Positions 29,201-49,174 of a stretch of DNA of 49,174 nucleotides are shown piece after piece. Numbering within the stretch: the stretch's first letter is position 1; each line of letters opens with the position of its first letter. The stretch is from NCBI GenBank assembly GCA_946553045.1, contig CAMNRO010000018.1:1-49174 (forward strand), read 5' to 3'. The stretch comes from an uncultured Porphyromonadaceae bacterium. Lineage in GTDB: Bacteria > Bacteroidota > Bacteroidia > Bacteroidales > Muribaculaceae. A program made the translations under genes and the position numbers. The notes under the pieces are model-generated. The model had not been told where the DNA came from, did not search any database, and saw nothing but the letters and a program-made list of their open reading frames with translations.

Positions 29201-30710
29201 TTTTCAGGAAAAGAGCCTGGTCGGTGGTGGTGATGTCGCTTGAAAATTCGCCGACCTGATATACCTGGCCGTTGTAGGTATATTCGTAGGCAACGGCCAG
29301 CACTTCGTCGGCATTGAGAGCCGTTCTCACCGAAATGTAGCCGAGGGTGGAGTTGAGGGTATATTCGCTTGAACTCAGCAGGCGCGCGCTTTCCACCTTT
29401 TCGTAGTCGCTGCCGCCTTCTATTCCATAGGCCCCCAGAGGTTCAAGAACCTGGGTGACCTGATTGATGTTTCGGGCTCCGGCATAGTCTGCCTTTATAA
29501 TCGACAGAAGGTTGTTGGAGGCATTTGCCGGGTTCGGTAGGGAGGCATTGGTCTGCCAGTAGTTGTTTCCGAGCACACGGTTCTCGCCGAGATCCTGAAA
29601 TGCCACGAGGTTGCGGCTTTGGTCGAAGCGGCCGTTCTTGTTGGTAATCCACACTTCTATACGGGTGATTTTAATGCCCGAAGAAACATATGGGAGGTGT
29701 GACGCGAATTTGTCGTAGTTGTCGCGGAAATAGTGGGCGAGGAAATAATGCCTGTTCTGGTCGTATTGGTCGGCGTTGATAGTGAACTCGGTTGTCTGCG
29801 CGCCGCCTTTGGTATTGACGGTCTTGGATTCTGAGTTCTGCTGCGAGACAAGCGCCGTGGCGGTCAGTTTTCCGAATTGCAGCTTGGATTTGATGCCGAA
29901 CAGGGCGGTTCCGCCGCGAATCAGCGAGGAGCCTGTTGTCATGGATACATTGCCGGCTTCGATGGTCTTGACAATATCGTCTTCCTCGCCTTCATAGGCG
30001 AGTTTCAGGTTTTTGGAGTCGAAATCGAACGTAGCGTCGGTGTTGTATGTCATGTTGAAGCGCAGACGGTTGCCTACGCTTGCGGCTATGGTTGCCTGTA
30101 TTTTCTGATCGAAGTCGAAATATGTCTTCCGTCGGGCCGATAACGACAGGGCCGGGTTGTCGGTCTTGTTGCTCTTTATGCCCATTGAAACCTGCACCGA
30201 GCCCTGGGTCTTGAGCGAGACGCCTCCGGGACCGAAAATCTTTTCGAGCGGTCCGAGAGCGAAGTTCATGTCGAGTATGTTGAAGGGCTCCTTCTCTTTG
30301 TCGGTTATCAGCCCAAGATTGCGCTCTCTGTAGAAGCGCTGCATGTTCAGTCTCAGCTGCCAGTTTTCATATTGTTGCTTGGTGAGCATGAACGGGGTGC
30401 CGATCTGGAGACCTCCGAGGTATGTGCGCACGATATAGTTGCCCGTAGCAGGGTCGAAATCTGCGGTGGTCGTGATGTTGGACGGCGTCGAGAGGTCGTA
30501 GCCGAGTTCGTCGGACATCAGGTCTTCGTAGCTGCGGGGCACTGTCGGCCTGGTGCCGAAAGGCAGCGCCAGGCTGTCGGTCTGCTGCGTGGCCGGAAAT
30601 GCGGCCGGGGCAGGGGCGCCGAAAGCCGGGGGCATTTCCTGGGCATGTAGACCAGCCGGCAGTAATAATACTGCTATAATCAGAAATATATATGCTACGA
30701 ATCTGCGCAA
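23298..30710 (-). CDS. sprA: T9SS translocon / gliding-motility protein SprA (Sov)
   Basis: This 2470-residue protein would form the very large outer-membrane barrel that exports type IX secretion cargo. A signal peptide (1-23, LHA-QEM) is followed by a Pro/Ala-rich segment. Repeated SprA-type sections then include PFMLTKQQYENWQLRLNMQ near 100-120, FDFDQKIQATIAASVGNRLRFNMTYNTDATFDFDSKNLKL near 205-245, and KGSSYIDDFESTQTGIDLRSPYSWFLAS near 825-850. Very many Asn/Tyr/Phe-rich barrel strands run to the C-terminus. The size matches the family (about 2400-2500). The gene is intact with no frameshift seen. It is 18 nt downstream of ruvA on the same strand and probably last in the tamB-garK-ruvA-sprA operon. 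It implies that the genome has a T9SS; no cargo with a T9SS C-terminal domain is in this window. Confidence 0.96.
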   Translation of the reverse strand: MRRFVAYIFLIIAVLLLPAGLHAQEMPPAFGAPAPAAFPATQQTDSLALPFGTRPTVPRSYEDLMSDELGYDLSTPSNITTTADFDPATGNYIVRTYLGGLQIGTPFMLTKQQYENWQLRLNMQRFYRERNLGLITDKEKEPFNILDMNFALGPLEKIFGPGGVSLKTQGSVQVSMGIKSNKTDNPALSLSARRKTYFDFDQKIQATIAASVGNRLRFNMTYNTDATFDFDSKNLKLAYEGEEDDIVKTIEAGNVSMTTGSSLIRGGTALFGIKSKLQFGKLTATALVSQQNSESKTVNTKGGAQTTEFTINADQYDQNRHYFLAHYFRDNYDKFASHLPYVSSGIKITRIEVWITNKNGRFDQSRNLVAFQDLGENRVLGNNYWQTNASLPNPANASNNLLSIIKADYAGARNINQVTQVLEPLGAYGIEGGSDYEKVESARLLSSSEYTLNSTLGYISVRTALNADEVLAVAYEYTYNGQVYQVGEFSSDITTTDQALFLKMLKSTTTSPKLPMWHLMMKNVYSLGGYQIQKAKFKMNIKYLSDTTGIQINYLPVAGLNNKSLLQVMNLDRIDSNEQSNPDGFFDFIDGYTIYPSTGKLVFPVVEPFGSHLASVIGNPAVAEKYVYQELYDSTLVVARQYADKNKFILSGEYQASAGSQIRLNAMNVPRGSVIVMAGGVQLTENSDYTVDYAMGIVTITNQSIIDSGQNISVTLENQSMFSTQRKTLLGLDLQYQLNKNLNIGATILHFSEKALIEKVNIGDETVNNSIFGLNMAYNGEFMWLTNLINKIPTVNATQPSRLSFTAEAAKIMPHAQKSGSNKGSSYIDDFESTQTGIDLRSPYSWFLASTPYESGTNALFPEAALSNNVNYGKNRALLNWYYIDRLFTQRNSSMCPGYIKSDLKQLSNPYVREVRVNDVFPGREHTYGEASTIQTLNLSFYPTERGPYNLDHTGIDDQGYLTNPEKRWGGIMRRLDNTNFEQSNIEYVQFWLMSPFLDPEADNLEGGDLYLNFGEISEDILKDGLKSYENGIPYDGNDQYLTETVWGRVSQQNSLTYSFDNNNGARVAQDVGLDGLSNDDEFKFPSYSEYVDNISRRVSPETLQRMQADPFSPLNDPAGDNYHFYRGYDYDEQRLSILERYKRYNGVEGNSLSPEDAADPLYQSSRSVPDVEDINQDNTLNEYERYFQYRVSIRPQDLEVGRNYITDKRVTVVPTRDGENQMVEWYQFKIPLSDYERVVGSISDFSTIRFARMFLTGFKKTTHLRFATLELVRGEWRPYDFNLNTRGDTPAQGQLDISVVNIEENSTREPVNYVLPPGVTRISDPGQTQITQLNEQSMSLKVTGLNAGDARGVYRNTQLDLRNYQRMQMWVHAEALIDNATALRSGELSVFVRLGTDVKNNYYEYEVPLELTPPGTYSYANSSEVWPTSNYLNFNLQSLVELKKERNRAKRAEEEGVGYGVLFTGRDPANERNRMAVMGNPSLSDVRVMLVGVRNNSATTKDGTVWVNELKVTDFNESGGWAAKANATLNVSDVATLNLGTHYESAGFGSVDQSLNERRLDDYSQINVAVQADLGRFLPEKAKLKAPVYYSMTKERTSPKYNPLDQDVLLKDALDDCTDKAERDSISAYAIESSSVQNFSISGLKFDVRSAKPMPWDPANFTFNFSFTKQSKNDPTTEYENTNDYRGSLAYNYSPYFKPFKPFKNLKGKSKNVRFLKDWELSWLPTNISFMTNMTRYYYEQQTRSETDVMFQLPVSVSKNWLWDRQLAMTWNITKTLSLSFNSNTSARIEETIGAVNKKLFPDKYRDWKDTIWQSLRSMGTPWSYNQTFTGQYKAPFSKIAFLDYLTGNVSYNATYRWDRGATIDGIQVGNSIANQAAWTADGRINFETLYNKIPILRDVTKRFANTRPTNKTPRKAKKFERTYKLKEDTTLLIKHNLRTAKIKVSATTTDGKPFVIKSKVIDNNSIEVLNRGKENIKFTIVEVIKEDKSLWRDISEYALRVVTSPRNIAVRYRSTNSLNLPLFRPEIGNIFGQTMSQGPMSPGLDFAFGFTDEKYIDKALSRGWLITDDGQTSPAIWAKTNELNMEVNLELFKGFKVQLTFNRTDNRNSQIQFMYAGMPTSLSGSYTRTHCAILTALKGSSADDGYRSAAFDKFLENIPEIRRRVEAQYIGTRYPTGGFMADNIAAGQPFSPEIGTISETSSDVLIPAFLAAYTGRSAATESLDPFPSFSAVLPNWRITYDGFINLGNMRNIFKTFTINHAYQCTYSVGSYTSYLNWASADGNDNLGYTLDELTGEPIPSSPYNISSVAITERFAPLFGVNATLKNDLQLNAEYRDQRTLTLNSSAGQLVEATQRAIRIGAGYKIVGFNTVLKMKGSGTGVSNDLTLNAECTFQHNQALIRRIEGNYTQPTSGSNTIGINFTASYILSKRLTMSAYFDHQVNSPIVTTSSYPTTNSSYGISLNLSLAR

Positions 30711-31313: not shown

Positions 31314-32323
31314 AGCAAATTTTCGATATATGGCCGAGCTGCTTCGGCGGTTTTCAATAGAGCGGTATAAGGGTCGGAGGGCAGGGGCGAGCCTTCGGAC
31401 ACACATGGGAACACATTGTCGAATGATACACCGTCTGCCGTCGAGCCGCAGAATATCACCGCAGGAATACCCCGGCGCGAGGCATAGGCGCAGACTGCGG
31501 CGACTGTCTTGCCGCCTGATGTCTGAGCATCGAGCCGTCCTTCGCCTGTGATTATGAGCCGAGGGGTAAGCCCCGTCAATGCTTTTTCGAGTATTACAGG
31601 AGCCCCGGATATGACACTGCAGCCTACAATGCTTTCGAGAGCGAAGCCGATTCCTCCGCCAGCTCCGCCATGAGTGTCGCGGCCCGGGAATATCTGCCGG
31701 AGGCGTCTGAAGAGAGCCGCGCACCATTCGCGGTCTTTGTCGTCGGCTCCTTTCTGGCTGATAAACGACATGGCCGACAGACCGCTTTCTGTGTAGAGGG
31801 GCGCGCAGACATCGGCAAGCCCTCGCAGGCTTTTTCTATAAAAATCTGCCAGAAGAGTCGGTTGCTTTATTGAGACCGGCAGACCGTCGGCGTCGCGTTC
31901 GATGACATAACCCATGCCTTCGAGCATACCAAGGCCGCCATCGGCTGTCAGGGTGCCTCCGATACCTATGTCTATGCGGCTGTATGCGCCGCTTTCGGCG
32001 GCGTGGCGTATGGCCGCTCCGACTTCGCGCGAAGTTCGTTGTCGAAGCGGAATATCACGCCGGCATACAAGCGGTTGCCATGGCAGATTTTCGCCGCACG
32101 ACGGTATGTATGCGGTCAGAGTGCTGTCGGCCGCGGTATATTCATAGTATTTGTTCGCCGCCACCCGGGCGCCGAGGGCTTCGGCGGTGCCTTCACCGCC
32201 ATCAGCCATAGCCACCACGACTATCTTCTGCCCGTTCAGTTCTCCGAGACCGTGACTGATGGCCGAGCCGGCGCGTAGCGAACTTAGTGTTCCCTTGAAT
32301 TTATCGCTTGCTATTGCTATCAT
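31310..32323 (-). CDS. Glycerate kinase (GarK/GlxK family)
   Basis: This 337-residue cytosolic enzyme phosphorylates glycerate, most likely to 2-phosphoglycerate, feeding glycolysis. Family motifs in order are ASDKFKGTLSS (5-15), ADGGEGTAEAL (about 40-50), IGIGGTLTADGGLGMLEGMGY (about 118-138), and ITGEGRLDAQTSGGKT near residues 260-275. The sequence is full length. It overlaps the end of the tamB-like gene by 23 nt and the start of ruvA by 4 nt. The metabolic role seems unrelated to the flanking envelope and repair genes. Confidence 0.92.
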   Translation of the reverse strand: MIAIASDKFKGTLSSLRAGSAISHGLGELNGQKIVVVAMADGGEGTAEALGARVAANKYYEYTAADSTLTAYIPSCGENLPWQPLVCRRDIPLRQRTSREVGAAIRHAAESGAYSRIDIGIGGTLTADGGLGMLEGMGYVIERDADGLPVSIKQPTLLADFYRKSLRGLADVCAPLYTESGLSAMSFISQKGADDKDREWCAALFRRLRQIFPGRDTHGGAGGGIGFALESIVGCSVISGAPVILEKALTGLTPRLIITGEGRLDAQTSGGKTVAAVCAYASRRGIPAVIFCGSTADGVSFDNVFPCVSEGSPLPSDPYTALLKTAEAARPYIENLL

Positions 32324-35300
32324 TCTGGGTAGTGTCGGTTTCTGCCGTCTGTTTGCGGAATTTGCGAAGGAACGAAAGGAAATCGTCGAAGTCGCGGCGG
32401 AATACGATGCCTATGCCCTGTGTGGTCTGGGCAGAGCGTACGTAGAAGTTGCGGTCGTTGTAGCGGTTATAAGCTTTCAGACGCCATGAACCGCGTTTGT
32501 TGAGAAGATATTCGATGTCGAAATCGCCTACAAACTGGTTTGTGTTCAGGCTCTTGTCTCGATATCCGAAATTGCCATTGAACAGAAGGCGGTTGTTGAG
32601 CAGGCGGCTCGACAGGGCCACATCGACCTCTACGTCGGAGAAATCGCCGCGGTCGCTCCGCAGGTTCGGTGCTATGCTCCAGTTATCGCTCAGTTTGCCG
32701 AGCATGTTTCCGAGCTGGCTCGATATTGTCGAAGAGGCTACAGAGAAGAGTTCGCTGCCCTTTGTGGTGGAGGCCATGTAGTCGGGAGTGTAGAAACGGT
32801 TGAGGGCCAGCAGATATATAATCTGGCGGTTCATCATGTCGGATGTGCTGACTATGCTTCGCACCTTGCGGTATGTGTCGGAGGTCAGAGTCGGGAATTC
32901 GAGGTCGAAATCGATTGTTGGCTGCCGAATGTCGCCGCTGACAAGCATCAGAGCGTGAACCGGCACATTGGTGCGGCTCACTTCCTTGTCCTGAAGGAAT
33001 GATTCGTCGAGGTCGCTCAGGTTGGCGTTTGTGGCATAATAGGCCTGTAGATTTGTCTTTACGGCATATGGGTCGCCGTCGAAACGTATTTCACTGCCTT
33101 CCTTGATTGTGAAATCGCGTATTATGATGTCCTGAAGCGTGAAGCGGTAGCTGCCCGACAGAACGGTATATGCCCCCCAGATGTTGAGGGAGTTGTCGAC
33201 CGACTGATAGGCCAGGTGAAGGTTGCCTTCGCCGATGGCTTTGATTTCGTCTCCGGCTGTAGGGTCCATCACAAGGGTCATCTGGGCGTCTTTTGTGATG
33301 CCTACGCGCAAATCCATGTTATAGGCCGAGGCTTCGTCGGTATTCGAGGCTTTTATGCGGTTTTTAAGCTCTCTGACAATGGCCGGAGTATCGTCGTGCT
33401 TTTCGGGAGTCCGCAGTGTGTCGGGTGTCACATCGCGGAAATGGAGGAATGAATAGCTTTCGGCATCGAGGCGGTCGGACAGAACGAAAGTGAATGTAGA
33501 GCGTGGCGCTGTCGTCATGTCTACCTTTATGTCTACCACACCCGGATAGCCTGATATGGAGGCCCCGCCGTTGCCATAGATGGTGCCATACCAGTCGGGG
33601 TATTGTTTTGGTGTGGCATTGAAACTCAGGAAGTCCTGCGCATGGCTTATGTCGAATTTGAATACGGGCTCCTTGAAGTAGGTGTGGCGGACAAGTCCGT
33701 CGAGCTTCGCCGTGTGGCCTTCGACGTCGCGTATTGTCACGTCGTTGAGACGTATCACACCCGGAGTCATGCAGACACTGTCGTTTGCGGTGTACCAGGT
33801 GTTGGTGAAGTCTATCTTCATCTTCACTTCTTCGGCCATCACTTTGCCTTCGAGGTCCACTTCCTTGAACGTACCGAACAGGCGGCAGTGGCCGCTTGCA
33901 TGTCCGCTGATGTCGGAGGCAAATGCTTCCATGAACGGTTTCAGGAATCCGACGGGCACATGGCGGGCGTTGAAATCGATGTCGAGCGCTTCGCCCATAG
34001 GGAAAATCTTGCCTGCTATACGGCTCTTGTCGCCTTTGAGGCCCGTTATGTCGGCGTCGAAGGCAAAGGATTTGTCGCTGTTGCTCCAGTGTGTCTCGAT
34101 GTCGGCGTCGCCGATGGTGCAGCGGTTGTAGCCAATGCTGTCGACATGTAGCTTGGGGCAGAAAAGCTCCGGCTCGCTGCTGAGGAGGCGGCGGGCGCTG
34201 AAACGCCCCGTGGCACGGCCGCCTATCATCGCTTTGTCGATTTCGAGAGTTTCGAAAATAGGAAGCAAGGCTATGGAATGCAAATCGATGGCGATGTTGT
34301 CGTCTTCACCATGGCCGGCTGTTCCGTCTATGGCTATCGACTGGCTGCCGGCATTGAGCCCGAACCCTTCGACGCGAATATCGTTCCCGACCGAAATCCG
34401 CGATTTCCTGATGTTCCAGGTTTCGTCGCCGAAATTGATGGTGCCGGGATTGAAGTTGACTGTCAGCGGAATGGGGCAGAGCATATTGTCGTTGTGCTCC
34501 GGCCGAGGCAGGATTTCGGTGCTGAACGACATTGTTCCGTTCAGCGGAATCTTTCGTTCAATCATCCAATCGATACGGGTATCGATGATGTTGTCGGCGC
34601 CGTTGATTAGTCCGGTGAGCGCCATGTCGCCTTTGTTGGTCGGAATCTGGGTCGTTATATATATGGAGGAGCGGTCAGACTCGCGGTCCATAGTGGCGTG
34701 GAGGGCTGTTCCTTCGATAAGCTTGTCGCCGTTACGCAGATATGGCGCATCGAGCGACAGGGTGGCTTGCTGTCTGCGACTGTCGAATGAGCCTTCGAGT
34801 TCGGCATCGTGCACAATGTGCACGGGCAATCTGAAAAATTCGCTCACATTTTCCGACGGCAGTAGGGTGAAGTTGAAACTGAAATCGTTTGATTTGGATT
34901 CGTCGGGCACATATGTGTCGTCGATTAGCGCAGGCACAAAATGGGCCGCAACGCTTTTAATCTGCGGCACAAGGGTCGAGAACGTATATTCGCCCTCGAA
35001 TGAGCCCTTTAGGATATCGGAGTCTATGTCGATTGTGGCCGGCACGGATTTGCTGTCGGCGTTGACTGTGAAATCATCGATACGCAGGCCGCTGTTATTG
35101 GCGTTGAGCCATCTGATATCGTTCAGTCTTATAAATCCGTGTCCGCGGGTGAAGTCGGATATGTCGAGGTCGGTATTCAGTTTGGCTCCGAAGCGGTAGC
35201 CTTCGTGCCGCTTGTCGAATCCGAGGGCATAGAAATCCACATTCGCAACCATGGCGGTAGCCTGAAGGCGTTTCGTGCTGTCGTCGTTGGTATATAGAGT

Positions 35301-36827
35301 GTATGCGTGAACTATGGCAGAAGGATCGTTCATGTCGACTCTGAGTTCGAGCTGGCTCTTGTTTTCTATATCGGCGGAGATGTCGATATCGCGGTAGGTA
35401 TAGCCTCGGAAGTCGAAATCATAGATTTCGGCCTTGATTTCGCCTTCAGGCCGGAAACCGGTGCGGCCTTTGCCCTCGATGTTGCCGCTGACAAGGCCTA
35501 AATCTTTGTTTCCGCAGATGAGGCCGAGGTCGAGATTTTTGAAAGACGACTTTCCGCTTAATCTTACGGCCTTGTAGGGCAAAATGATATACGAGGCATC
35601 AAGACTGAGCTCGCCGGCTGTTCCGTCGGTGCGTATGGCGACCTTGCCACGGTCCTGATTGCCTTCAGCTTTAAGCGACACGGCTTGTGCGACAACAGAT
35701 TTTAATGCATTTCTCTGAGACGCTCCGAGATATGGCGCGACGAGCGGGGCGGCTTCGGTTCCATCGAGAGCAGCCGTGCAGTTTTCAAGCTTGTATTCAT
35801 ATCCCTCGTCGGTTTTACGGGCATTTCCTCTCAATCGTAGGGCGAAAGCGCCTCTTTCCGAGTCGGATAGCGCTAAATTGCCTATTTCAGCCGATTTGTC
35901 GCCCAAGCGAATGTCGAATTCGAGTGCGAATGGCCGGCTCAGGTGTTCGAGTTGTGGCAGGAACGCCTGCAGATCGGGCGGATATATGCGGCTCCGCGCC
36001 GATGTTCCGATAGTGAGAGGTGTTTCGGCCATGGCACGCGGAATGTCGGAATAGCCGTCGTAGTGCAGCTCAATCGGCTTGAGAGAGAACCGGCTGTCGG
36101 GCAGCGCGATGGAAAAATCGGTTACGCGCAGGCCTTGATGGCCGACAGATATTTTGGATTGGAGGCGGCGCAGTTCGAATCCGCTGCGCTCTCTTAAAGA
36201 GAGATGTTCGAGTTCGATATCGTATTGGTCGGAACTGAGGTCGGGAATGTATGCGTTGAGTTCGAAATCGCTCACTGCTATGTGGGCAGCGTCGAAGCGA
36301 CGGTCTTCCGGGGGCTGCTCCGAGAGAATATTGTAGTCGAGGCTGGAATGTCGCAGTATTACGGTGTTGATTTTCAGATGGAACGAGCTTTTGCGACCAC
36401 TCCGCCTGTCTTTTTTGACGTGAGCGAGGATTTCTTCGAAATTGGCGGGGGAGCTCTTGTCTGCGCGCCAGAGGTTGAAACGGGCGCTGTCTACGAGCGC
36501 ATAGTCCACTATCAGTTCTCCTGTCCTGAGAAAGTGATAGAGCTCGAAGCCTGCGCTGATGGTTTCGATTGAAGCCACTGTGTCGGCCTCTTCCGGGCGA
36601 ATCAGCCGTACGCCTTTAATCGACAGCCTATTGAAAGGGCGAATGCTCACGTCGTCGATATCCACTTGTGCGCCAAGCAGCTTCGAGAGTTCGCGGCTCG
36701 CAGTGTCGCGGACCTCGTTTTGTACCGGAGCCATGGAAAGGAGCACATATAAAGACGTCGGAAGCGCCACGGCAAGCACCAGCAGCACTACGGCGATAGC
36801 TCTGAATATTTTCCACGCTAACTTCAT
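32301..36827 (-). CDS. TamB-like translocation/assembly (DUF490/AsmA-type) protein
   Basis: This 1508-residue protein is anchored in the inner membrane and spans the periplasm. The ATG at 36827 is preferred over a TTG at 36839. One N-terminal transmembrane helix (about 5-30) is followed by an AsmA-like opening (NEVRDTASRELSKLLGAQVDIDDVSIRPFNRLSIKGVRLI). A very long beta-rich middle and the C-terminal DUF490 region follow, the latter with YTVLSGSYRFTLQDIIIRDFTIKEGSEIRFDGDP and the late segment ELFSVASSTISSQLGNMLGKLSDN. The family bridges inner and outer membranes for lipid transport or outer-membrane protein assembly. It heads the tamB-garK-ruvA-sprA operon. The C-terminus ends in a polar tail rich in Thr, Asp, Asn and Ser. 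Confidence 0.9.
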   Translation of the reverse strand: MKLAWKIFRAIAVVLLVLAVALPTSLYVLLSMAPVQNEVRDTASRELSKLLGAQVDIDDVSIRPFNRLSIKGVRLIRPEEADTVASIETISAGFELYHFLRTGELIVDYALVDSARFNLWRADKSSPANFEEILAHVKKDRRSGRKSSFHLKINTVILRHSSLDYNILSEQPPEDRRFDAAHIAVSDFELNAYIPDLSSDQYDIELEHLSLRERSGFELRRLQSKISVGHQGLRVTDFSIALPDSRFSLKPIELHYDGYSDIPRAMAETPLTIGTSARSRIYPPDLQAFLPQLEHLSRPFALEFDIRLGDKSAEIGNLALSDSERGAFALRLRGNARKTDEGYEYKLENCTAALDGTEAAPLVAPYLGASQRNALKSVVAQAVSLKAEGNQDRGKVAIRTDGTAGELSLDASYIILPYKAVRLSGKSSFKNLDLGLICGNKDLGLVSGNIEGKGRTGFRPEGEIKAEIYDFDFRGYTYRDIDISADIENKSQLELRVDMNDPSAIVHAYTLYTNDDSTKRLQATAMVANVDFYALGFDKRHEGYRFGAKLNTDLDISDFTRGHGFIRLNDIRWLNANNSGLRIDDFTVNADSKSVPATIDIDSDILKGSFEGEYTFSTLVPQIKSVAAHFVPALIDDTYVPDESKSNDFSFNFTLLPSENVSEFFRLPVHIVHDAELEGSFDSRRQQATLSLDAPYLRNGDKLIEGTALHATMDRESDRSSIYITTQIPTNKGDMALTGLINGADNIIDTRIDWMIERKIPLNGTMSFSTEILPRPEHNDNMLCPIPLTVNFNPGTINFGDETWNIRKSRISVGNDIRVEGFGLNAGSQSIAIDGTAGHGEDDNIAIDLHSIALLPIFETLEIDKAMIGGRATGRFSARRLLSSEPELFCPKLHVDSIGYNRCTIGDADIETHWSNSDKSFAFDADITGLKGDKSRIAGKIFPMGEALDIDFNARHVPVGFLKPFMEAFASDISGHASGHCRLFGTFKEVDLEGKVMAEEVKMKIDFTNTWYTANDSVCMTPGVIRLNDVTIRDVEGHTAKLDGLVRHTYFKEPVFKFDISHAQDFLSFNATPKQYPDWYGTIYGNGGASISGYPGVVDIKVDMTTAPRSTFTFVLSDRLDAESYSFLHFRDVTPDTLRTPEKHDDTPAIVRELKNRIKASNTDEASAYNMDLRVGITKDAQMTLVMDPTAGDEIKAIGEGNLHLAYQSVDNSLNIWGAYTVLSGSYRFTLQDIIIRDFTIKEGSEIRFDGDPYAVKTNLQAYYATNANLSDLDESFLQDKEVSRTNVPVHALMLVSGDIRQPTIDFDLEFPTLTSDTYRKVRSIVSTSDMMNRQIIYLLALNRFYTPDYMASTTKGSELFSVASSTISSQLGNMLGKLSDNWSIAPNLRSDRGDFSDVEVDVALSSRLLNNRLLFNGNFGYRDKSLNTNQFVGDFDIEYLLNKRGSWRLKAYNRYNDRNFYVRSAQTTQGIGIVFRRDFDDFLSFLRKFRKQTAETDTTQNDSNSKR

Positions 36828-36836
36828 TGCAAGATG

Positions 36837-36844
36837 CAAAGTTA
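36837..36844 (-). promoter_or_regulatory. -7 element of the tamB-garK-ruvA-sprA operon
   Basis: The minus strand reads TAACTTTG, 9 nt before the ATG at 36827, so the transcript would be nearly leaderless. No TTG is seen at the proper -33 distance. Confidence 0.5.
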
Positions 36845-39397: not shown

Positions 39398-39871
39398 ATG
39401 AGTCAGAAACCGTATAGCGGCGAGGCGAAGAGGGCGGACGAGGCCATGGCTTGGTTCGAAAATGTGCGCGGGCTCTTGTCGGCTGGCGGCTCGGTTGAGT
39501 TTGCGCCAAGGGGCTACAGCATGTGGCCGACAATTAGGCCGGGAAAAGACACTGTCTGTCTGCGGGCTGCGGCCGACTACCGTGTGTCCGATATCGTGCT
39601 TGCCGCGTGCGACAATCCACCTCTGCTTGTTCTCCATCGCATTGTGCGGCTTCTCCCCGACGGAGCTGTGCTGAGGGGCGATTCCAACCTCTATCAGACC
39701 GAGACATGCACCTTCGACGGCATTGCCGGTCGAGTCACCGCCATATCGAGAGACAGCCGCGATGTATCGTCGTCGGTCTCTACGCGTCTTCTGGCTATGC
39801 TTCAGCGATTTCCGGCCCTTGTAAGGCGCCCGGCGGTAAGAATTTTAAACCTGTGGAAGAATGGAATCTGA
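39398..39871 (+). CDS. S24/S26-family peptidase (signal-peptidase-like)
   Basis: This 157-residue protein contains the nucleophile motif RGYSMWPTIRPG (38-49, Ser41) and the second-box motif LVLHRIVRL (77-85) followed by VLRGDSN (91-97). Bacterial leader peptidases have a general-base Lys in this second box; here His80 occupies that place, as in Sec11/archaeal-type enzymes. No transmembrane segment is evident, so it may be cytosolic or peripheral. The gene overlaps the downstream ABC exporter by 11 nt. Such S24/S26 genes beside ABC exporters are found in Bacteroidales RiPP-like export clusters, but no precursor or modifying enzyme is adjacent here. Substrate processing is inferred. Confidence 0.8.
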   Translation: MSQKPYSGEAKRADEAMAWFENVRGLLSAGGSVEFAPRGYSMWPTIRPGKDTVCLRAAADYRVSDIVLAACDNPPLLVLHRIVRLLPDGAVLRGDSNLYQTETCTFDGIAGRVTAISRDSRDVSSSVSTRLLAMLQRFPALVRRPAVRILNLWKNGI

Positions 39872-41525
39872 CGGTTTCAAACGAGTTGGCCGCGACCTGG
39901 CCCGTCTATGGCGCGAATCGTATGGCACGCGGGGGCTCGCCCTGTGTACAGCGGCGGCCGGCTGCCTCAATGTGGCTGTCGCGCTGATGTTTATATGGGC
40001 AACCAAGCGTATAGTCGATTTTGCCGTCGGCCCCGCGCACACTATTCCGTCGGGCTATGTTGCTCTCCTTGTGGCGTGCCTGCTGCTCCAGCTGCTGATT
40101 CCGGCGCTGCGCCGCCGTCTCGAGACCGCAGCATTCATAAGATACTCCAACACCATGCGCAGCCGCCTGCTGGGCCATCTGCTCGGGGCGCGGTGGAGCG
40201 GACGCGGCGGCATGCACCACGGCGACGCCATAAGCCGCATGCGCGACGATGTCGACACGCTCGCCTCGCTCTCGTGCTCGACCATACCCGGCCTCGTGGC
40301 CGTTGCCATGCAGCTTGCCGGCGCATTTGTGTTTCTTGCCATGCTTGAGGCCAGGCTCGCTATTGCCGTGGTGTTCATAATGCCTGTGGCGCTTGTGGTG
40401 AGCAAGATATATGTCAAAAAAACGCGACGTGTCGCAGGCGAGATACGCCGTCAGGAGAGTGCCGTCCAGACCTTCCTTCAGGAAAGCCTCAGCCACCGCA
40501 CCCTTCTCTCCACGCTCATGGCCGGAGCGCGGCGCGTCGGCGATTTCGACACCATGCAGGCCTCTCTCGCAGGCCGTATCATGGAGCGTACAGGTATCTC
40601 CATCTATTCCAATGCCGTCATCTCGGCCGGTTTCATGGCGGGCTATGCCGTCACATTCCTCTGGAGCGCCTACGGCCTGGCCGCGGGTCTGGTATCGTTC
40701 GGCATGATGACAGCGTTCCTGCAGCTCGTGGCCCAGGTGCAACGGCCAGTGCTCGACCTTTCGCGGCGTATTCCCGCCTTCATCAATGCCTCGGTGGCGC
40801 TCGACCGCATAGACGGCATCCTGGCGATACCCCTGGAGGATTATACGGCCCCTCATGCCGCCGCCGGCACTCCTGCGGGCCTGTGTTTCGACAGTGTGAG
40901 CTACCGCTACCCCGACGGCGACCATACGGTGATATGCGGCCTCTCGCACGATTTCCGGCCCGGCAGCGTCACTGCTGTCACCGGCCCCACCGGCAGCGGC
41001 AAGAGCACCCTTCTCAGGCTCATGCTCGGCCTTGTAGAGCCTGTTTCTGGTGCGGCGCGCTTCTATACAGCCACAGGCGAGAGCGGGCCCATATCGGCCG
41101 CTCTGAGACGCAATATCGTCTATGTGCCGCAGGGCAACACGCTCGTGTGCGGCACCGTCCGCGACAATTTGCGGCTTGCCAACCCCGATGCCACCGACCA
41201 AGAGATGGCACTGGCGCTCAAAGCCGCCGTAGCCGATTTCGTGCTCGAGCTTCCCGACGGCCTCGACACCCAGTGCTTCGAGGGCGGAGGCGGATTCAGC
41301 GAGGGCCAGGCCCAGCGCATAGCCATAGCGCGTGGCCTGCTCAGAAAGGGCTCTGTCATTCTGCTCGACGAGCCGACATCGGCCCTCGACCCCGAAACCG
41401 AGCTCCAATTCCTGTCGCGCTTCCTCGGCTATGTCGCCTCGGAGAGCACCATAATCATTGTCACGCACCGTCCGGCCGTGCTGTCCTATTGCACCGACGT
41501 CCTCGAAATTCAGCCTTCCCTCTAA
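39861..41525 (+). CDS. ABC exporter with fused membrane and ATPase domains
   Basis: This 554-residue half-transporter has a transmembrane domain with about six helices (30-320) and an ATPase domain (338-554). Walker A is GPTGSGKS (375-382), Q-loop Gln424, signature FSEGQ (479-483), Walker B VILLDEP (499-505) and H-loop His536. It lacks a C39 peptidase domain, so any cleavage of cargo would have to come from the overlapping S24/S26 peptidase. Base composition is visibly richer in GC than the flanking genes; long antisense frames across it are a by-product of that. The gene is followed by the palindromic repeat element rather than a normal terminator. Cargo is unknown. Confidence 0.9.
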   Translation: MESDGFKRVGRDLARLWRESYGTRGLALCTAAAGCLNVAVALMFIWATKRIVDFAVGPAHTIPSGYVALLVACLLLQLLIPALRRRLETAAFIRYSNTMRSRLLGHLLGARWSGRGGMHHGDAISRMRDDVDTLASLSCSTIPGLVAVAMQLAGAFVFLAMLEARLAIAVVFIMPVALVVSKIYVKKTRRVAGEIRRQESAVQTFLQESLSHRTLLSTLMAGARRVGDFDTMQASLAGRIMERTGISIYSNAVISAGFMAGYAVTFLWSAYGLAAGLVSFGMMTAFLQLVAQVQRPVLDLSRRIPAFINASVALDRIDGILAIPLEDYTAPHAAAGTPAGLCFDSVSYRYPDGDHTVICGLSHDFRPGSVTAVTGPTGSGKSTLLRLMLGLVEPVSGAARFYTATGESGPISAALRRNIVYVPQGNTLVCGTVRDNLRLANPDATDQEMALALKAAVADFVLELPDGLDTQCFEGGGGFSEGQAQRIAIARGLLRKGSVILLDEPTSALDPETELQFLSRFLGYVASESTIIIVTHRPAVLSYCTDVLEIQPSL

Positions 41526-42312: not shown

Positions 42313-43512
42313 TTACTTTTTCTGGCGTATGATTACAACTCGGCTGAGCGAGGGATCATTGAGGAACATATTGCCTACGCCGCCGTTCCACGACACGTCG
42401 AGACGCTCGGCTGCGATACCGAATTCCTTAACGAGGTATTCGCGTACCGACTGGGCGCGTTCGCGGCTGAGGGTTTCGTTGATTTCGGCGCTGCCGGTGG
42501 CTTTGTCGGCATAACCGATGACCGAGAATACGGTCGATTCGGGCGTAGACTTGATCATGTCGGCCACCATTTCGAGCTGGGCGCGGTCGGCGTTGGAGAG
42601 CGAGCTCACGTTGATGGGGAAGTAGATGAGATAGTTGCCGTTGGCGTTGACAACGGTGTTGTGCTGCACGGTTGTGCCGGCTTTCTCGCGTTCGAGCTTT
42701 TCGTTCTGGGCGATAAGTTCGGCCACGCGGCGGCGGAGTTCGTTTACGGCGTTGTTGTCGTATTCCACCACCTTCATCACGCGCGATTTCCAGCCGCGGG
42801 GAGCGAAGCGGTATGTTACGCCGGCGGTGACGCTGAGCATGGCGTCGAAGCTGCGGCGGCCTACCTCGCCGTCGAATTCATCGTTGGTAATCATGGCGCG
42901 GAGGTCGAGGTTGATGTCGAAAGCCTTCGATACGTGGAACATATTGAAGATACCGGCGTTGCCTATTACCGTGTTCTGATGGGGGTTGTTGTAGACATGG
43001 CCCCAGCCCACACCGATGTAGGGGGCGCAGCCATACACGCGGTTGGCATTGTAGCCGCCGATCATGTTTGTGAGGTCGAACATCACATCGGCGTGCAGAG
43101 TGAGATAGTTGATTTTCTGCTCGCAGAGATAGCCGTAGGCGTTGGTGAACTTGCCGGGCACTTCCTTGCCGGTGTTGTAGATGCCGCCGTTCTTGTCGCC
43201 CCAGGTCTGGGTGGCGCCTTTGGCGCTGAGACCACTGTACATCAGGCGTACGCCGATAGAGGGCGAGAACCATTTGCCCACGGCGATGTCGAGAGCCGGC
43301 GATATGCGGTCGCCGAACTTGGCCTGACGGTCGTGGTCGCCGAAGAACATCTGCGGGCCGGCGCCTACGCTGATAAACCAGTTGCTGCGGCCGTCGGGAG
43401 CGACGCTCGTCACCGTTTCGGTGTAGGTCTCAGTTGCGACCTCGGCTACTTCCTGTGCCGAGATGCCCAAAGCGGCGGTTGCCGCAATGGCTGTCAATAG
43501 ATACTTTTTCAT
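42313..43512 (-). CDS. OmpA-family outer-membrane protein
   Basis: This 399-residue protein has a signal peptide (1-19, GISA-QEV), a barrel domain (about 42-235: NWFISVGAGPQMFFGD, GKWFSPSIGVRLMYSG, YIGVGWGHVYN) and a coiled-coil linker (NELRRRVAELIAQNEKLEREKAG, about 258-280). The C-terminal OmpA/MotB-like peptidoglycan-binding domain (about 290-399) contains SVIGYADKATGSAEINETLSRERAQSV. Domain order matches the protein at 5923-7131, but the sequences differ enough to be distinct paralogues. It follows the fimbrillin-like lipoprotein by 35 nt on the same strand and is probably co-transcribed with it. Linkage to fimbrillin-like genes suggests an envelope anchor for surface fibres; this is inference. 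Confidence 0.92.
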   Translation of the reverse strand: MKKYLLTAIAATAALGISAQEVAEVATETYTETVTSVAPDGRSNWFISVGAGPQMFFGDHDRQAKFGDRISPALDIAVGKWFSPSIGVRLMYSGLSAKGATQTWGDKNGGIYNTGKEVPGKFTNAYGYLCEQKINYLTLHADVMFDLTNMIGGYNANRVYGCAPYIGVGWGHVYNNPHQNTVIGNAGIFNMFHVSKAFDINLDLRAMITNDEFDGEVGRRSFDAMLSVTAGVTYRFAPRGWKSRVMKVVEYDNNAVNELRRRVAELIAQNEKLEREKAGTTVQHNTVVNANGNYLIYFPINVSSLSNADRAQLEMVADMIKSTPESTVFSVIGYADKATGSAEINETLSRERAQSVREYLVKEFGIAAERLDVSWNGGVGNMFLNDPSLSRVVIIRQKK

Positions 43513-43547: not shown

Positions 43548-45779
43548 TTATTTTTCTCTTACGCAGCGCACTGCCTGGGCCTGCCAGGGGTTGGAGGAGT
43601 CTTTGGCCACGACATTGCCGTTGACACCGGAACTTCTGCCTGAGGCCAGACCCTTGTCGGGCTCGGCATAGTTGCCGGAGCCTGTAAGCCAGAAGAAGTG
43701 CTGCAGAGCCATCTGGCTGCGGCGGGTGTCGGCGGTAGCGGCAGAGCTTGTCCACCAGTATCCGCTCTTGGCGAAGTGATCGCGTGCGCCGTTCGGGTTG
43801 GGGAAGCGCACACCGCCCATGGCGTAGTAGTTGCCTTCGCTGTCGTCGTCGCTGCGCTTCATGTATATGCCGTATCCGAAAATCTTGTCGCTGTTCGATG
43901 AGCTTCCGTATGCAAAACCGATGCGGGTGCGGTGTATTCCGCGCGGGAGCCAGCGCGGAGTCGTGCCGTCGTATTCGGTTTCTACCACGCAGTTTATGTT
44001 CTCGGTAAGTTTCGGTATTTTCTCGCCGTTGTCACCGGTGTGGAAATCGATTACGCCTTTCATTGTAATGCTTGTTTTGTTGACGGGAATGAAGGCGGTG
44101 AACGTGTTGCCGTTGGCAACGCGGTAGCCTACCGGCGAGGGGTCGTAGATAGTCTTCACGTCAGACCAGCCGCCGTCAGAGCCGGATGCCATGGCGTCGT
44201 CGCCCCATAGCAGACGGCAGTCGGTGCCGAGCCAGTGGGAACCGTTTGAGTCGGCAGCCCTGTTGATTATATATCCGGGCCGGAGCACGCTCGCACCGAT
44301 TGTAGCCTCGGCGCTTGTTGCCGGCTGCCATACGGGGAACGAAGAGGCGATGTTCTGAGCCGCGCCCCCGGTATAGTATGTGTCGGCGTTGGGGAAGGGG
44401 TCTTTGCGGCCCCACTGGTAGAGCATGCAGTTGAGCACATATGCCTCGTTTTCGGCTGTGCGGGTGGTTTCAAGACGCTGGGCGTCGGTCGAGGGGAAGG
44501 CACCGAGATTGCGGTCCATGATGTCGAAAGTGCTGCCTTCCTTGGTGGTGATGGCGTAGTCCTGGGGCATGGAGTCGCCTACGCCCCATATGTGCCAGCT
44601 CCACAGAATGTCGCCCTGGCGGTCTGTGCCGCTGTAGACGGCGATAACGGCGTTGCCTACGTTGCCCGATGTGGTATAGTACACGCGTCCGTCGCGGAGT
44701 TCGACGTCGGAAATGAAGCCCTGCACGTCTTCCCAGAGCAGAGCGGCCGAGCGCGGAGCAATATTGGCGTTTTCGGTGTGGAATCCGGCACCGGGAATGA
44801 TGCCCTTCTGGCCGTTGCCTATCACGGTAGCCTTGAAGTCGTGTTGTCCGGCAGAGGTAATCATATAGCAGTTGGCGGTCTCCTCTTCGGGCTCTACGGG
44901 CAGTTCTTCCACATTCATGTCGGCGGCGAAGTCGCGCAGCTGCAGATTGAATGTATATACCGTGTTGGGCATGAAATCGTATGCTATAGCCTTGGTGAAG
45001 GTGGCTTTGTGGCGGTCGGTGAGTATTGTTATCACCACCTGGTCGTCGGCATGAAGGTCGGGGGCTACCGACATATACGCCGTGTAGCTTTTTCCTGCGG
45101 TCAGCGCGGGAATATCGGCCCATTCGAGGGTCACGGTGCTCGATGTGTTGCCTGCGAAGGCATAAGAGCCGTCGGTGGCGTCGAAAGTGAAGTCGCCGGC
45201 CAGCTGGCGTCCTTCGGGCAGCGCGAGCGATATGCTTTTCAGATATTCACCGGCCAGCGGAGTGCCAGTGGCTTCGATGTTGAATCGCAACAATGCGAAA
45301 ATGTGGGTGAAATCGAATTCGTTTTCAGTGTTGGGGCGCGGATAGCCGAATTTATAGTCGCCGTCGATGCGTTGCGAGGCCGAGTCGAACGACTGGTTCG
45401 CCTGCAGCGTGCCGGTCAGCGATGTCGGGTCGGCGCCGTCGTTGGCGGCGCTGTATGGGTAGTATGCGTATTGCGGTGTGGCGCAGTTTCCGGTGAAAGC
45501 GGCGCGTCCTGTGGGGGCGGTGGCTGAGCACGCAAAGCGGGCGTTGCGCACGGTGCCTCCGAAAACGCCTATAGCGTCGTCGGGAGTCCAGAGGATACCA
45601 ATATGTCCTCCGAAATAGTCTGTCGGGTCTATCGCTGTCCGCGAGTTGATATCCGTGTCGGCTGTGTTGGCGATGATGACGGTCTCTGCATCTTGTTTCA
45701 TCTCGCCTGGCTGAGTATTTTCGCAGGATATTGCGGTGATGGCAAGAATGCCTGCGATAAAGCGAATGGTTTTATTCAT
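43548..45779 (-). CDS. Fimbrillin-family surface lipoprotein
   Basis: This 743-residue lipoprotein is lipidated at Cys19 (AITAISC). The ATG at 45779 is chosen since the 45 residues before it are low-complexity leader sequence, not signal-like. The N-terminal half (about 25-300) looks like an Mfa/FimA-type fimbrillin domain: RTAI, ILWTPDDAIGVFGG, YAYYPYSA, FTHIFALLRFNIEA. The C-terminal half has NCYMIT, GNAVIAVYSG, WSWHIWG, MDRNLGAF and YQWGRKDPFPNAD, and ends GYWWTSSA...WQAQAVRCVREK, a pattern of Bacteroidales tip or major-paralogue-type surface domains. It is probably a type V pilus tip or surface adhesin. It shares an operon direction with the OmpA-family gene downstream. Confidence 0.82.
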   Translation of the reverse strand: MNKTIRFIAGILAITAISCENTQPGEMKQDAETVIIANTADTDINSRTAIDPTDYFGGHIGILWTPDDAIGVFGGTVRNARFACSATAPTGRAAFTGNCATPQYAYYPYSAANDGADPTSLTGTLQANQSFDSASQRIDGDYKFGYPRPNTENEFDFTHIFALLRFNIEATGTPLAGEYLKSISLALPEGRQLAGDFTFDATDGSYAFAGNTSSTVTLEWADIPALTAGKSYTAYMSVAPDLHADDQVVITILTDRHKATFTKAIAYDFMPNTVYTFNLQLRDFAADMNVEELPVEPEEETANCYMITSAGQHDFKATVIGNGQKGIIPGAGFHTENANIAPRSAALLWEDVQGFISDVELRDGRVYYTTSGNVGNAVIAVYSGTDRQGDILWSWHIWGVGDSMPQDYAITTKEGSTFDIMDRNLGAFPSTDAQRLETTRTAENEAYVLNCMLYQWGRKDPFPNADTYYTGGAAQNIASSFPVWQPATSAEATIGASVLRPGYIINRAADSNGSHWLGTDCRLLWGDDAMASGSDGGWSDVKTIYDPSPVGYRVANGNTFTAFIPVNKTSITMKGVIDFHTGDNGEKIPKLTENINCVVETEYDGTTPRWLPRGIHRTRIGFAYGSSSNSDKIFGYGIYMKRSDDDSEGNYYAMGGVRFPNPNGARDHFAKSGYWWTSSAATADTRRSQMALQHFFWLTGSGNYAEPDKGLASGRSSGVNGNVVAKDSSNPWQAQAVRCVREK

Positions 45780-45921
45780 TATATTATGTAGTATATGGCC
45801 AAAATAATTGATTAATACACGGACTAAGTGTTTATCAGATTTTAAGGCTTTTAATTTCCGGCTGTCGCTTCTGTCAGCGGAGTGCCGGTGCATAATAATC
45901 AGTAAGATAATCAATAGATAT

Positions 45922-45982: not shown

Positions 45983-48718
45983 TTACTTCAGAGGATTTTT
46001 AGAGTTGTTGGTGAAATGGGAATTTGCGTTGTTTTCCACCTGGGGTGCGGCTTCCTGGTCTGCGCGGTTGAGCAGGAATGCCTTGTTGTTGTTGATGATG
46101 GCGCGGATAAGCGCTGCGGATTGGTAGGTTGCTTCATCTCCATTGGGTGCAATCGCATAATTCATGAAAACAAGACCGAGCGGGCAAGCCTGACGTGTCG
46201 GGTTGGTGATACGTCCGAGAGTGAACGGATTCAGCTCTTGTGCGAGTGCTTGACAATTTGAGGCCGTAGCGCTTCCGTAGAGATAACCGCCGAGTGAGGT
46301 TTCATAGAATGTGCGGTGCAAACCTCCCTTATAGTTGTTTGCAGCCGTTTCATTCATTGTAGTGATTGCATTCTTTCTTGCCGTCAGGTCCGTGACATTA
46401 TCAAGTTCAGTGAAGCACCAGCGAAGATATGTGCTCGGATTTGTTGTGCCATCAATATATGGGGCGACAGGAGATTTCCATTGCAGGCTGATAGTCTGCG
46501 GAGTGTCGCTTCGCATCCAGCGTGAGAACAGAGCAGGTGTGTTTGTTCCCCATGCATATTGATACTCATTATTGTTTGCCTCAGTATCGTAGTTGGTATT
46601 GATTTTTACGATAACCGTGCCCTGCACCATGGAAATGGTCGTATTGGCGTCGAGACTTCCGCTATATACCACAGGTTTGCCTGTCGCTGTGTTGGTTTCG
46701 GTTGAAAGTCTTTCAAGACATGACCTTACAGCGATAGCCCAGGCCTGACCGCCAGTTAGGTTGAATGTTCCGGCGCCAAAATCTTCGCGGGAAGTTTCAG
46801 TCCAGCTGTCAGAGTCTGTAAATGACGGATTATTTATGTTCCACTGAGTATAGGTAGACCCGGATTTCTCATCGATATACTCATATCCGCTGATTGACTC
46901 ATTGTCTTTCTGGCGAGTTGCGGTTGTGCGGTAGCCGCTTCTGTATGGCACTCCAGAGATAGCCGTTTCGCCGGTCATACCAATTTCAAGGAACATCAGA
47001 CCATCGGGATTCATGTTTTTGGCTAAGTTAATGATTGCCGTTGAAAGAGGGTCGGAGGAGTTGTCGTTGAAACGATATAGGCGTAACCAGAATTTAGGAA
47101 CGATATATGCAGTCTCGTTTTTAGTCTGGACAATAGAGCCTGTGCCGGAAACTGTTCGTCGTTGACCGTAATACCTGCCATTTACGTTCCAATAACCTGT
47201 TTCTGTTTGGCCATAAGATAGATTTGTCTCATTGGCGACAGAATTGGTGTAACTGATATTTGTGAAAGGATCTTCGAAATTTTCGGTTGTACTGTTGATG
47301 TCGAATCTTTGATCGAAATTACCGGCCTGCATAAGGTCTGTGCCATTTCTGGTCGCTACCTCAAATGCTCTGATACCGTTGTTGTACATCTCTTGAAGCG
47401 TTACTCCTCCCTGATAGGCCGCATTGGCGGCATGCCATGCACCGGGGATAGAGAGCTCCGATATGTAGATGTCGGGATTGAGCTGGCCGATCCATGAGGC
47501 GAGGTTGAAGTCCATACCGCGAGTCAGGAAGTAACCGAACTTAACCGGATAAATCATGCCGGTGGCAAAATTGGAGTCGTTGTTGAGCATCTGGTAGAAA
47601 TCTCCGCAGTTTGTCTGGAGATGAACGCGGAGCTGACCCAGGTTTTCACCCGTAATCTGACCGGGGATAAGGAAAGCGCGCAGGCGCAGATGGTCGATGG
47701 CGTCGTATTCGTGAGACTCGCCACGCACGAACAGGGTGGGGTAGTAGACACCGCCGTCGGCATTTGTCATCGAGGTCTGAAGCTGCACTGTCGAGTTGCC
47801 GCTGGTAGTGCTTTTGTCAACCATCGTGCCGGCGTCGGCTGCTTCCTGCGACATATTGAGGTCGAAACTACCGGAAATAATCAGATTGTCGTCGATTTCG
47901 TATTCGTCAATTTTAGAGCCGTTTACCTTTACAGCTTCGATGGTTACGGCCTGAATCTGAATATAGTCGGCCTTGATTTTGGCCTCGTTGCCGCCGAGGG
48001 TATTGGGAGTGACAGGACCGTTGAGGGTGATGTCGAGCACGTCGGCAAGCACATTGAACTGCAGAGGCACGGGCTGGCCGAACTCTTCGGCAGTCATGGT
48101 CTTTCGAGCCACCATCACGGCTGCATTCATGTCGGGCATGCCGTAGATGGTTTTCGGGTTGCCTGTCACAGTGCTGTTGTTGTACTGAGAGGCGTTATAA
48201 TCCTTGAAACTCGAGATGCCGGTGAGAGTGCCGTTTGTGTTTTCCTTGTATTTATACACCTGAGGGCTCTGTCCTGTTTCGACCGTGGCGCGGATAGTGT
48301 TTTCGTTTGCCAGGGTCGTGCTTGCTTTGTCGGCAGGATAGAAGGCGTAGAATGTGTGAGGACCGGGAGCACCCCACTGAACGCCGATTTCGCTCATCTT
48401 CACGATAGTACCGGCGACATTGCTCGGCTGCTCCTGAAGATTCACTTTATACTTAGCGAAGCCGCGGTCGGTGTTGGGGCTGTAGATGTTGATATACTCG
48501 TCGTTTCCCGACACATAGTTGCCCCAAAAGATTTCCTGAGATGTTTTTTCTTCCCAGTCGTCCTGATACATGGTGCGGCTGCTGGGAGAGTTTGAGATGG
48601 AAAACAGGACATCGTCGCCGCTCGAGGCAATTGGAACCTCGGGCTCGTAGATTTTGTCTTCGCACCCGGCCAGGACAAGTGGGGCGAAGGCAAGAATCCA
48701 TTTGTAATTCATGTTCAT
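45983..48718 (-). CDS. Large surface lipoprotein: fimbrillin-like N-terminus with PI-PLC-like C-terminal half
   Basis: This 911-residue lipoprotein is lipidated at Cys19 (LVLAGC). Residues about 35-400 look like a fimbrillin/Mfa-type domain (SRTMYQDDW, HTFYAFYPADKA, NGGVYYPTLF-like strands, VLADVLDITLNG). From about 415 it resembles the PI-PLC X-type barrel: ISELSIPGAWHAAN (419-432), MYNNGIRAFEVATR (444-457), GTVIVKIN (700-707) and CPLGLVFMNYA (845-855) followed by RAIINNNK (872-879). In active enzymes IPGTHDS provides a catalytic His; here Trp428 is at that place with His429 next to it, and the later Asp/Arg are Glu453 and Ala455. So it is probably non-catalytic, or altered. Starts at 48718 or 48712 are both possible. 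The small CSGS protein precedes it by 24 nt. Confidence 0.72.
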   Translation of the reverse strand: MNMNYKWILAFAPLVLAGCEDKIYEPEVPIASSGDDVLFSISNSPSSRTMYQDDWEEKTSQEIFWGNYVSGNDEYINIYSPNTDRGFAKYKVNLQEQPSNVAGTIVKMSEIGVQWGAPGPHTFYAFYPADKASTTLANENTIRATVETGQSPQVYKYKENTNGTLTGISSFKDYNASQYNNSTVTGNPKTIYGMPDMNAAVMVARKTMTAEEFGQPVPLQFNVLADVLDITLNGPVTPNTLGGNEAKIKADYIQIQAVTIEAVKVNGSKIDEYEIDDNLIISGSFDLNMSQEAADAGTMVDKSTTSGNSTVQLQTSMTNADGGVYYPTLFVRGESHEYDAIDHLRLRAFLIPGQITGENLGQLRVHLQTNCGDFYQMLNNDSNFATGMIYPVKFGYFLTRGMDFNLASWIGQLNPDIYISELSIPGAWHAANAAYQGGVTLQEMYNNGIRAFEVATRNGTDLMQAGNFDQRFDINSTTENFEDPFTNISYTNSVANETNLSYGQTETGYWNVNGRYYGQRRTVSGTGSIVQTKNETAYIVPKFWLRLYRFNDNSSDPLSTAIINLAKNMNPDGLMFLEIGMTGETAISGVPYRSGYRTTATRQKDNESISGYEYIDEKSGSTYTQWNINNPSFTDSDSWTETSREDFGAGTFNLTGGQAWAIAVRSCLERLSTETNTATGKPVVYSGSLDANTTISMVQGTVIVKINTNYDTEANNNEYQYAWGTNTPALFSRWMRSDTPQTISLQWKSPVAPYIDGTTNPSTYLRWCFTELDNVTDLTARKNAITTMNETAANNYKGGLHRTFYETSLGGYLYGSATASNCQALAQELNPFTLGRITNPTRQACPLGLVFMNYAIAPNGDEATYQSAALIRAIINNNKAFLLNRADQEAAPQVENNANSHFTNNSKNPLK

Positions 48719-48742: not shown

Positions 48743-48943
48743 TTAGTTTGTTGAATTGATTTCGCCCCACGGATTACTGCTGAAATCGTTTTCTTCGGTC
48801 TCAACGACACCCTGAGCCTTGATATTTACGCCTTCGGCTTCTTCGCCTTTGAATACAGCAGAGCCGGAGCAGATGGGGCTTTCCAGCTCAACCCGCGTGA
48901 CGCTTGTTTTTGGTTGTTCGTAGATTTTCTTTTTCTTTTCCAT
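48743..48943 (-). CDS. Small CSGS-motif protein upstream of fimbrillin-like gene
   Basis: This 66-residue protein starts at ATG 48943 (MEKKKKIYEQPKTSVTRVE); an in-frame ATG two codons earlier (48949) is less typical. It has a Lys-rich start, YEQPKTSV, then ICSGSAVF near residues 25-32, and an acidic C-terminal half ending NPWGEINSTN. No signal peptide or membrane segment is visible. Small proteins of the pattern Y..P...V..L......L/C.GS often precede fimbrillin-type genes in Bacteroidales; their function is unknown to me. The layout (leader-like first half, single Cys, Gly-Ser) superficially resembles a peptide precursor. It is the first gene of the minus-strand surface-protein cluster. Confidence 0.7.
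   Translation of the reverse strand: MEKKKKIYEQPKTSVTRVELESPICSGSAVFKGEEAEGVNIKAQGVVETEENDFSSNPWGEINSTN

Positions 48944-49041: not shown

Positions 49042-49174
<133 letters not shown>

Follow-up and report, generated by a model that had tools for sequence, protein, structure and literature searches.

A fimbrillin-like lipoprotein fused to a degenerate PI-PLC-like barrel and paired with a putative precursor peptide gene in Bacteroidota

Why would a fimbrillin-like lipoprotein carry a phospholipase barrel that has lost its active site, and why does a small peptide gene directly precede it? The question is raised by a gene near the end of a 49,174-nucleotide stretch of DNA (the window; contig CAMNRO010000018.1 of assembly GCA_946553045.1) from an uncultured Porphyromonadaceae bacterium (Muribaculaceae), whose genome is labelled G000. 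The features are collected in Table 1. The fusion gene is single-copy in its own genome. Among 397 family genomes, 22 hold relatives, several of these matches being partial or fimbrillin-only; of 38 pattern stretches in genome_contigs, 17 do so, which comprise 14 fusions (L038-L051) and three stand-alone PI-PLCs. One more full-length fusion (G651) was found among 393 genomes drawn from the order. The named carriers include Muribaculaceae, Xylanibacter rarus, Marseilla massiliensis and Phocaeicola coprophilus, and several of them are presumably gut isolates. No viral carrier was found among 222 pattern stretches in viral_contigs, and a scan of genome_contigs with the single fusion sequence returned three stretches, none of them confirmed.

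Fimbrillin-only or short-piece matches (e.g., L022, L024, L028, L056, L061, L063, L064, L066, L068 and L070) were left out of the fusion counts. L002, L010-L012, L030 and L031 duplicate L038-L043 and were counted once, and the incomplete fusions L016 and L018 were kept apart from the counts. No motif alignment was possible for L108, whose residues were read by eye; this gives 26 fusions, 25 aligned plus L108.

Table 1. Positions of the fusion gene, its parts and its neighbours in the window
Feature	Position	Strand	Basis or match
Whole gene: fimbrillin-like lipoprotein fused to degenerate PI-PLC barrel, 911 aa	45983..48718	-	
Signal peptide, residues 1-19, ending in lipobox LAGC19, then E-D	48662..48718	-	sequence
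Type V pilin/fimbrillin-like two-domain body, residues 32-401	47516..48625	-	
PI-PLC-like barrel, residues 400-882	46073..47521	-	
Trp428-His429 replacing catalytic His32-Asp33	47432..47437	-	
Glu453-Val454-Ala455 replacing Asp67-x-Arg69	47354..47362	-	
Asn853 replacing Asp274	46160..46162	-	
YxxP peptide gene, 66 aa, directly upstream of the fusion; putative LPP-like RiPP precursor; stop codon 48743-48745	48746..48943	-	
Second Mfa_like lipoprotein, next downstream	43548..45914	-	Mfa_like_1 E 1.6e-13; sub-threshold Fib_succ_major E 0.015
OmpA-family protein, conserved third gene	42313..43512	-	8/14 loci L038-L051
Signal-peptidase-like protein, SM.P and LHRIV boxes; candidate leader peptidase	39398..39871	+	TIGR02228 E 6.9e-4, under cut-off; 0 Pfam matches
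ABC exporter, membrane and ATPase domains; candidate peptide exporter	39861..41525	+	ABC_tran 5.1e-24, ABC_membrane 8.7e-21; cluster C9

The fused barrel and its active site

The initial annotation described the gene product as a fimbrillin-like lipoprotein joined to a PI-PLC-like domain with a degraded active site, and this description is borne out. The protein has the two-domain pilin fold. In alignment A4, the lipobox Cys19 is invariant in all 15 members, and Arg48-Thr49 of the body is conserved as Arg or Lys followed by an invariant Thr. Type V pilins undergo trypsin-type cleavage at a conserved Arg and assemble by donor strands. The fusion protein alone matches no Pfam or NCBIfam family; Pfam Mfa_like_1 matches five of the 15 relatives in A4 and misses the window protein itself, and the N-terminal half (A8) found only an unrelated chain (E 0.28) among PDB sequences. 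Compared with type V pilin-like Bacteroides adhesins with Mfa_like_1 (BF1858, 3t2l; BACUNI_00621, 4k4k), the fusion has an additional C-terminal barrel of 480 residues. Judging from its sequence, the fusion is probably a surface-exposed outer-membrane lipoprotein; the acidic residues after the lipobox Cys are compatible with published surface-export signals of lipoproteins (PMC5080379).

The C-terminal part has the PI-PLC barrel fold, and a fold other than a TIM barrel, which would have spoken against the initial annotation, was not what was found. The catalytic residue names and numbers used here (His32, Asp33, Asp67, Arg69, His82 and Asp274) are those of B. cereus PI-PLC. The fusion shares the barrel, the strand order, the SIPG and GIRAF motifs and the terminal helix with the bacterial PI-PLCs of S. 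aureus, B. cereus and Listeria (PDB 4i90, 1ptd and 1aod), but it lacks the catalytic His, Asp and Arg (Trp428, Glu453 and Ala455 in the window protein), lies behind a pilin-like body and has a long variable insertion after GIRAFEV. A survey of homologues revealed that the loss is common to them. His32 is missing in 26 of 26 fusions (25/25 aligned, and L108 by eye); its column holds Trp in 10, Lys in six, Ala in four, Arg in two, Glu in two and Ser in one of the aligned fusions, and Lys in L108. Arg69 is lost in 25/26 and Asp67 in 22/26. The four fusions retaining Asp67 are L017, L025, L107 and L108, and Asp-x-Arg is complete only in L108. The His82 column, where the alignment is uncertain, has His in one of 25 fusions. 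At the Asp274 column, Asn is found in 18 and Asp in three of the 25 aligned fusions, and Asn also in three of 15 stand-alone enzymes. The R163-like column is mostly Asn among the fusions. The Asp198 column is acidic in 18/25, which indicates that part of an inositol-type pocket may persist. His429 was considered as a shifted catalytic His and rejected, and no homologue with a complete but different catalytic set was apparent in an unsystematic look. As far as the residues tell, the fusion barrel would not cleave PI by the known mechanism, its catalytic His, Asp and Arg being gone.

Stand-alone secreted PI-PLCs of the same bacteria (e.g., L080, L005 and L052-L054) have a homologous barrel but, unlike the fusion, retain His, Asp, Arg and His and have no fimbrillin part. 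Asp67, Arg69 and His82 are retained in all 15 stand-alone PI-PLCs analysed. Their His32 is intact by construction, since the set was picked by an intact IPGxH motif; L067 (dropped from the alignment) and L062 were left out. The fusion's own genome also encodes such an enzyme (L080; G000:C4, minus strand, 1-2679) with intact IPGTHD, DFRP and NHG. In the phylogenetic tree, all 25 fused domains lie on one side of a single branch with weak support (67/78) and long-branch warnings. The Pfam model PF00388 matches none of the 15 members of A4 above its curated cut-off; it gives 20.5 bits to L021 (cut-off 23.1) and also misses L005. Over the own genome, it found one sub-threshold place (C43, E 0.03; the ORF is GDPD-like by eye) and missed the C4 enzyme.

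The upstream peptide gene and its companion genes

The peptide gene directly precedes 23 of 23 fusions that were found without using the peptide (the 23rd, L035, with coordinates from the peptide search), and the incomplete fusions L016 and L018 as well. A profile search for the peptide in 297 family genomes gave 21 matches distributed over 17 genomes. Each of the 18 strong ones stands ahead of a fusion gene, which in G006 is broken into two frames, and three fusions overlooked by the protein search came to light with the peptide as bait (E 4e-129, 5e-101 and 1e-76). The three weak matches (22 bits; L109-L111) have the YxxP motif, and no barrel fusion was found beside them. In the own genome, the peptide profile has a single match. 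Third codon positions differ most in nine of nine peptide gene pairs (6, 4 and 17 by codon position against L038), so the ORF evolves like a coding gene. Tyr8, Pro11, Glu21 and Ser28 are invariant in the 20 aligned peptides, and YxxP is present in 20/20. The six peptides tested matched no Pfam or NCBIfam family, the only hit being PF24367 at E 0.27, and no signal peptide was seen by eye.

Shorter YxxP peptides were also found beside lipoproteins without a barrel (L148 of G280, 4211-4336; L110, L109 and L111), and those of L148 and L110 adjoin genes for an HprK-like kinase and NTP_transf_5. Thus, the peptide family looks wider than the pair with the pseudo-PLC. G155 has three diverged peptide-fusion pairs (L040, L043 and L106) and only one matched kinase gene, so one kinase may serve several pairs.

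What else travels with the pair? The peptide and the fusion are preceded by an ordered series of NTP_transf_5, HprK-like kinase, Wza and Wzc genes in nine of the 14 named loci; Wzc is not adjacent in the other five (L040, L041, L043, L046 and L048). Kin of the second Mfa_like lipoprotein follows the fusion in 10 of the 14 loci (L038-L051). A PqqD-like (RRE) ORF was seen by eye at the cassette in 10 of 10 distinct genomes, the own one included, and the single RRE scanned (L044) matches Pfam PqqD at E 1.9e-12. The kinase P-loop GxSGTGKSTH and LLNDD are conserved in 8/8; the own copy matches ScmC (1.8e-6) and HprK_rel_A (3e-4), both below the curated cut-offs. NTP_transf_5 matches the L038 protein at E 1.9e-37, and the own-genome copy is 56% identical. 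The signal-peptidase-like and ABC genes, both in the window, occur near just three and four of the 14 named loci, respectively. TIGR02228 gives 6.5e-3 for the L049 copy of the former and no match for that of L051. Farther away in the window, on the minus strand, lie a 2470-aa ORF with two SprA_N stretches (23298-30710; E 2.1e-207), a type IX secretion component, and a 1512-aa TamB/AsmA-type protein (32301-36839).

The kinase and peptide searches each covered 297 family genomes, taken as an identical set. All 15 genomes with a strong peptide match carry an HprK-like gene, compared with 30 of 297 overall (hypergeometric P 2e-17, with genomes treated as independent and relatedness ignored). The kinase lies at most 5 kb from a peptide in 10 of the 15. 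In the other five, it is 31 kb away (G155), on other contigs (G213, G006 and G013) or on contig C37 (G000). In 13 genomes with the kinase, the peptide profile has no match at E 1e-3. The barrel motif LSxPG was not found at eight kinase loci from such or other genomes; at one of these (G280, L148), the shorter YxxP peptide lies beside a 403-aa lipoprotein.

The own kinase, NTP transferase, RRE, Wza and Wzc genes are on the separate contig C37. The first base of C37 lies 178 bases ahead of the stop of its Wzc gene, whose product is 75% identical to that of L038. From the gene order and the matching inverted arms at both contig ends, I infer that C37 joins the window end. The window ends (49043-49174) in poly-G of 37 and 53 bases, and the start of C37 (G000:C37:1-105, L079) has poly-G and poly-C. 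The flanks CAGTAGGGGC and GCCCCTACTG at the two contig ends are inverted. Given the inverted flanks, a sequencing artefact at a hairpin located between the Wzc and peptide genes probably caused the break between the contigs. Phase variation by the window-end poly-G tract was considered and rejected as unsupported, since the fetched relatives have no run of at least nine G or nine C; the artefact is the likelier explanation of the tract.

Resemblance to LPP clusters

Linear polyphosphorylated peptides (LPPs) are RiPPs of Bacillota (Popov et al. 2026, PMC13381572). According to that paper, LPP clusters lie inside capsule loci and are defined by SpI, a discrete RRE, an HprK-like kinase, an NTP transferase and an MsbA-like transporter; their precursors contain YxxPxVLxHQxIxFETxxS, with cleavage following the T and phosphorylation at core Ser3. 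The present locus likewise has a precursor with a YxxP leader and conserved Glu and Ser, a discrete RRE, an HprK-like kinase, an NTP transferase, an MsbA-like exporter and a polysaccharide locus, together with a candidate archaeal-type signal peptidase whose TIGR02228 matches are weak or missing. The order of Tyr, Pro, Glu and Ser is the same as in the published motif, with a Glu-Ser spacing of seven here and four there. Unlike the clusters described, the locus has a Bacteroidota host, and its precursor is tied to a fimbrillin/dead-PLC lipoprotein. The locus would work like an LPP cluster and is probably a Bacteroidota relative, although, given the weak peptidase matches, only a putative member.

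The stem "Bacteroid" does not occur in the accessible text of PMC13381572. The accessible text of a paper on RiPP mining in Bacteroidales mentions neither nucleotidyltransferase nor YxxP, and its kinase passages are on histidine kinases (PMC10352776). In searches of an open-licence library, I found no report joining fimbrillin with a PI-PLC-like domain and none linking an LPP-type cluster to Bacteroidota.

What the dead barrel may do

The fold, the residue loss, the gene pairing and the kinase co-occurrence were computed directly. The catalytic loss and the pairing with the peptide gene suggest that the dead enzyme now binds instead of cutting. The explanation I prefer, and hold to be probable, is that the fusion is a lipoprotein whose barrel is a binding head that does not cleave, within a RiPP/exopolysaccharide surface system. 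The lipoprotein would be flipped to the cell surface. The peptide would be bound by the PqqD-like RRE, phosphorylated by the HprK-like kinase, with the conserved Ser28 as the candidate site, and perhaps further modified by the NTP_transf_5 protein; it would be cut by the signal-peptidase-like protein and exported by the ABC transporter. The same locus would build a polysaccharide through Wza/Wzc, and the barrel would bind rather than cut.

Is the barrel instead a surface adhesin for inositol lipids, GPI anchors or another host head group? A role in inositol or host-lipid binding and adhesion was the initial proposal. The retained PI-PLC fold, the Asp198-like acid kept in 18/25 fusions and the presumed gut origin of several named carriers would fit it, but the pocket-lining residues vary across the family (W, K, R, A, S or E at the His32 column; mostly Asn at the R163-like one), which is odd for one shared ligand, and the pairing with the peptide and RiPP genes is left unexplained. 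I therefore consider an adhesin improbable. No support was found for this role: the host-lipid reading has the fold as its sole basis, and the gene context, with its conserved neighbours, points elsewhere, to a RiPP/exopolysaccharide surface system. Thus, the initial proposal stands as to the fold and the dead site but not as to the inositol/adhesin role, and the peptide pairing is the more interesting part. It is very improbable that the barrel remains enzymatically active through a new catalytic set, since no shared replacement set was apparent among the fusions and the His32 and His82 columns are variable, even though Asp67 persists in 4/26 and Asp-x-Arg in L108.

The fusion might instead form part of a type V pilus, as its tip or stalk subunit, with the barrel as a display or spacer and the peptide serving the polysaccharide genes rather than the lipoprotein. 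Its pilin-like body, lipobox and conserved Arg/Lys-Thr would suit such a subunit, as would the second Mfa_like lipoprotein that follows in 10/14 loci. However, peptide and fusion go together whichever of the two is searched for, and the pair persists without adjacent polysaccharide genes in L040, L041 and L043, which makes this explanation rather doubtful. It is also unlikely that the 66-aa ORF encodes a cytosolic regulator or chaperone of the lipoprotein gene and not a RiPP precursor. The apparent absence of a signal peptide and the lack of family matches for the six peptides would agree with a cytosolic protein, but the companion genes and the positions of YxxP, Glu and Ser agree with the published LPP clusters (PMC13381572), and the kinase co-occurrence is perfect among the 15 genomes.

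If the binding head in a RiPP/exopolysaccharide surface system is adopted, what might it bind? I suggest tentatively that the barrel could be a dedicated surface receptor or anchor of the peptide, whose pocket would hold the phosphoserine or the nucleotidyl/sugar-phosphate head of an LPP-type RiPP. The former phosphoinositol pocket would then tie the peptide, the lipoprotein and the exopolysaccharide together at the cell surface. The idea is attractive because PI-PLC pockets bind a phosphodiester; the variable pocket may reflect ligands differing between clades, or it may argue against a shared ligand.

If this holds, the barrel would act as a pseudoenzyme receptor for a RiPP, and an LPP-like product would have its first proposed role. 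The pseudoenzyme family, whose evolutionary history is clear, would gain a likely partner, and the LPP-like RiPP gene set, so far of Bacillota, would be extended to Bacteroidota. Surface binding of the phosphorylated peptide would offer a testable role for such products.
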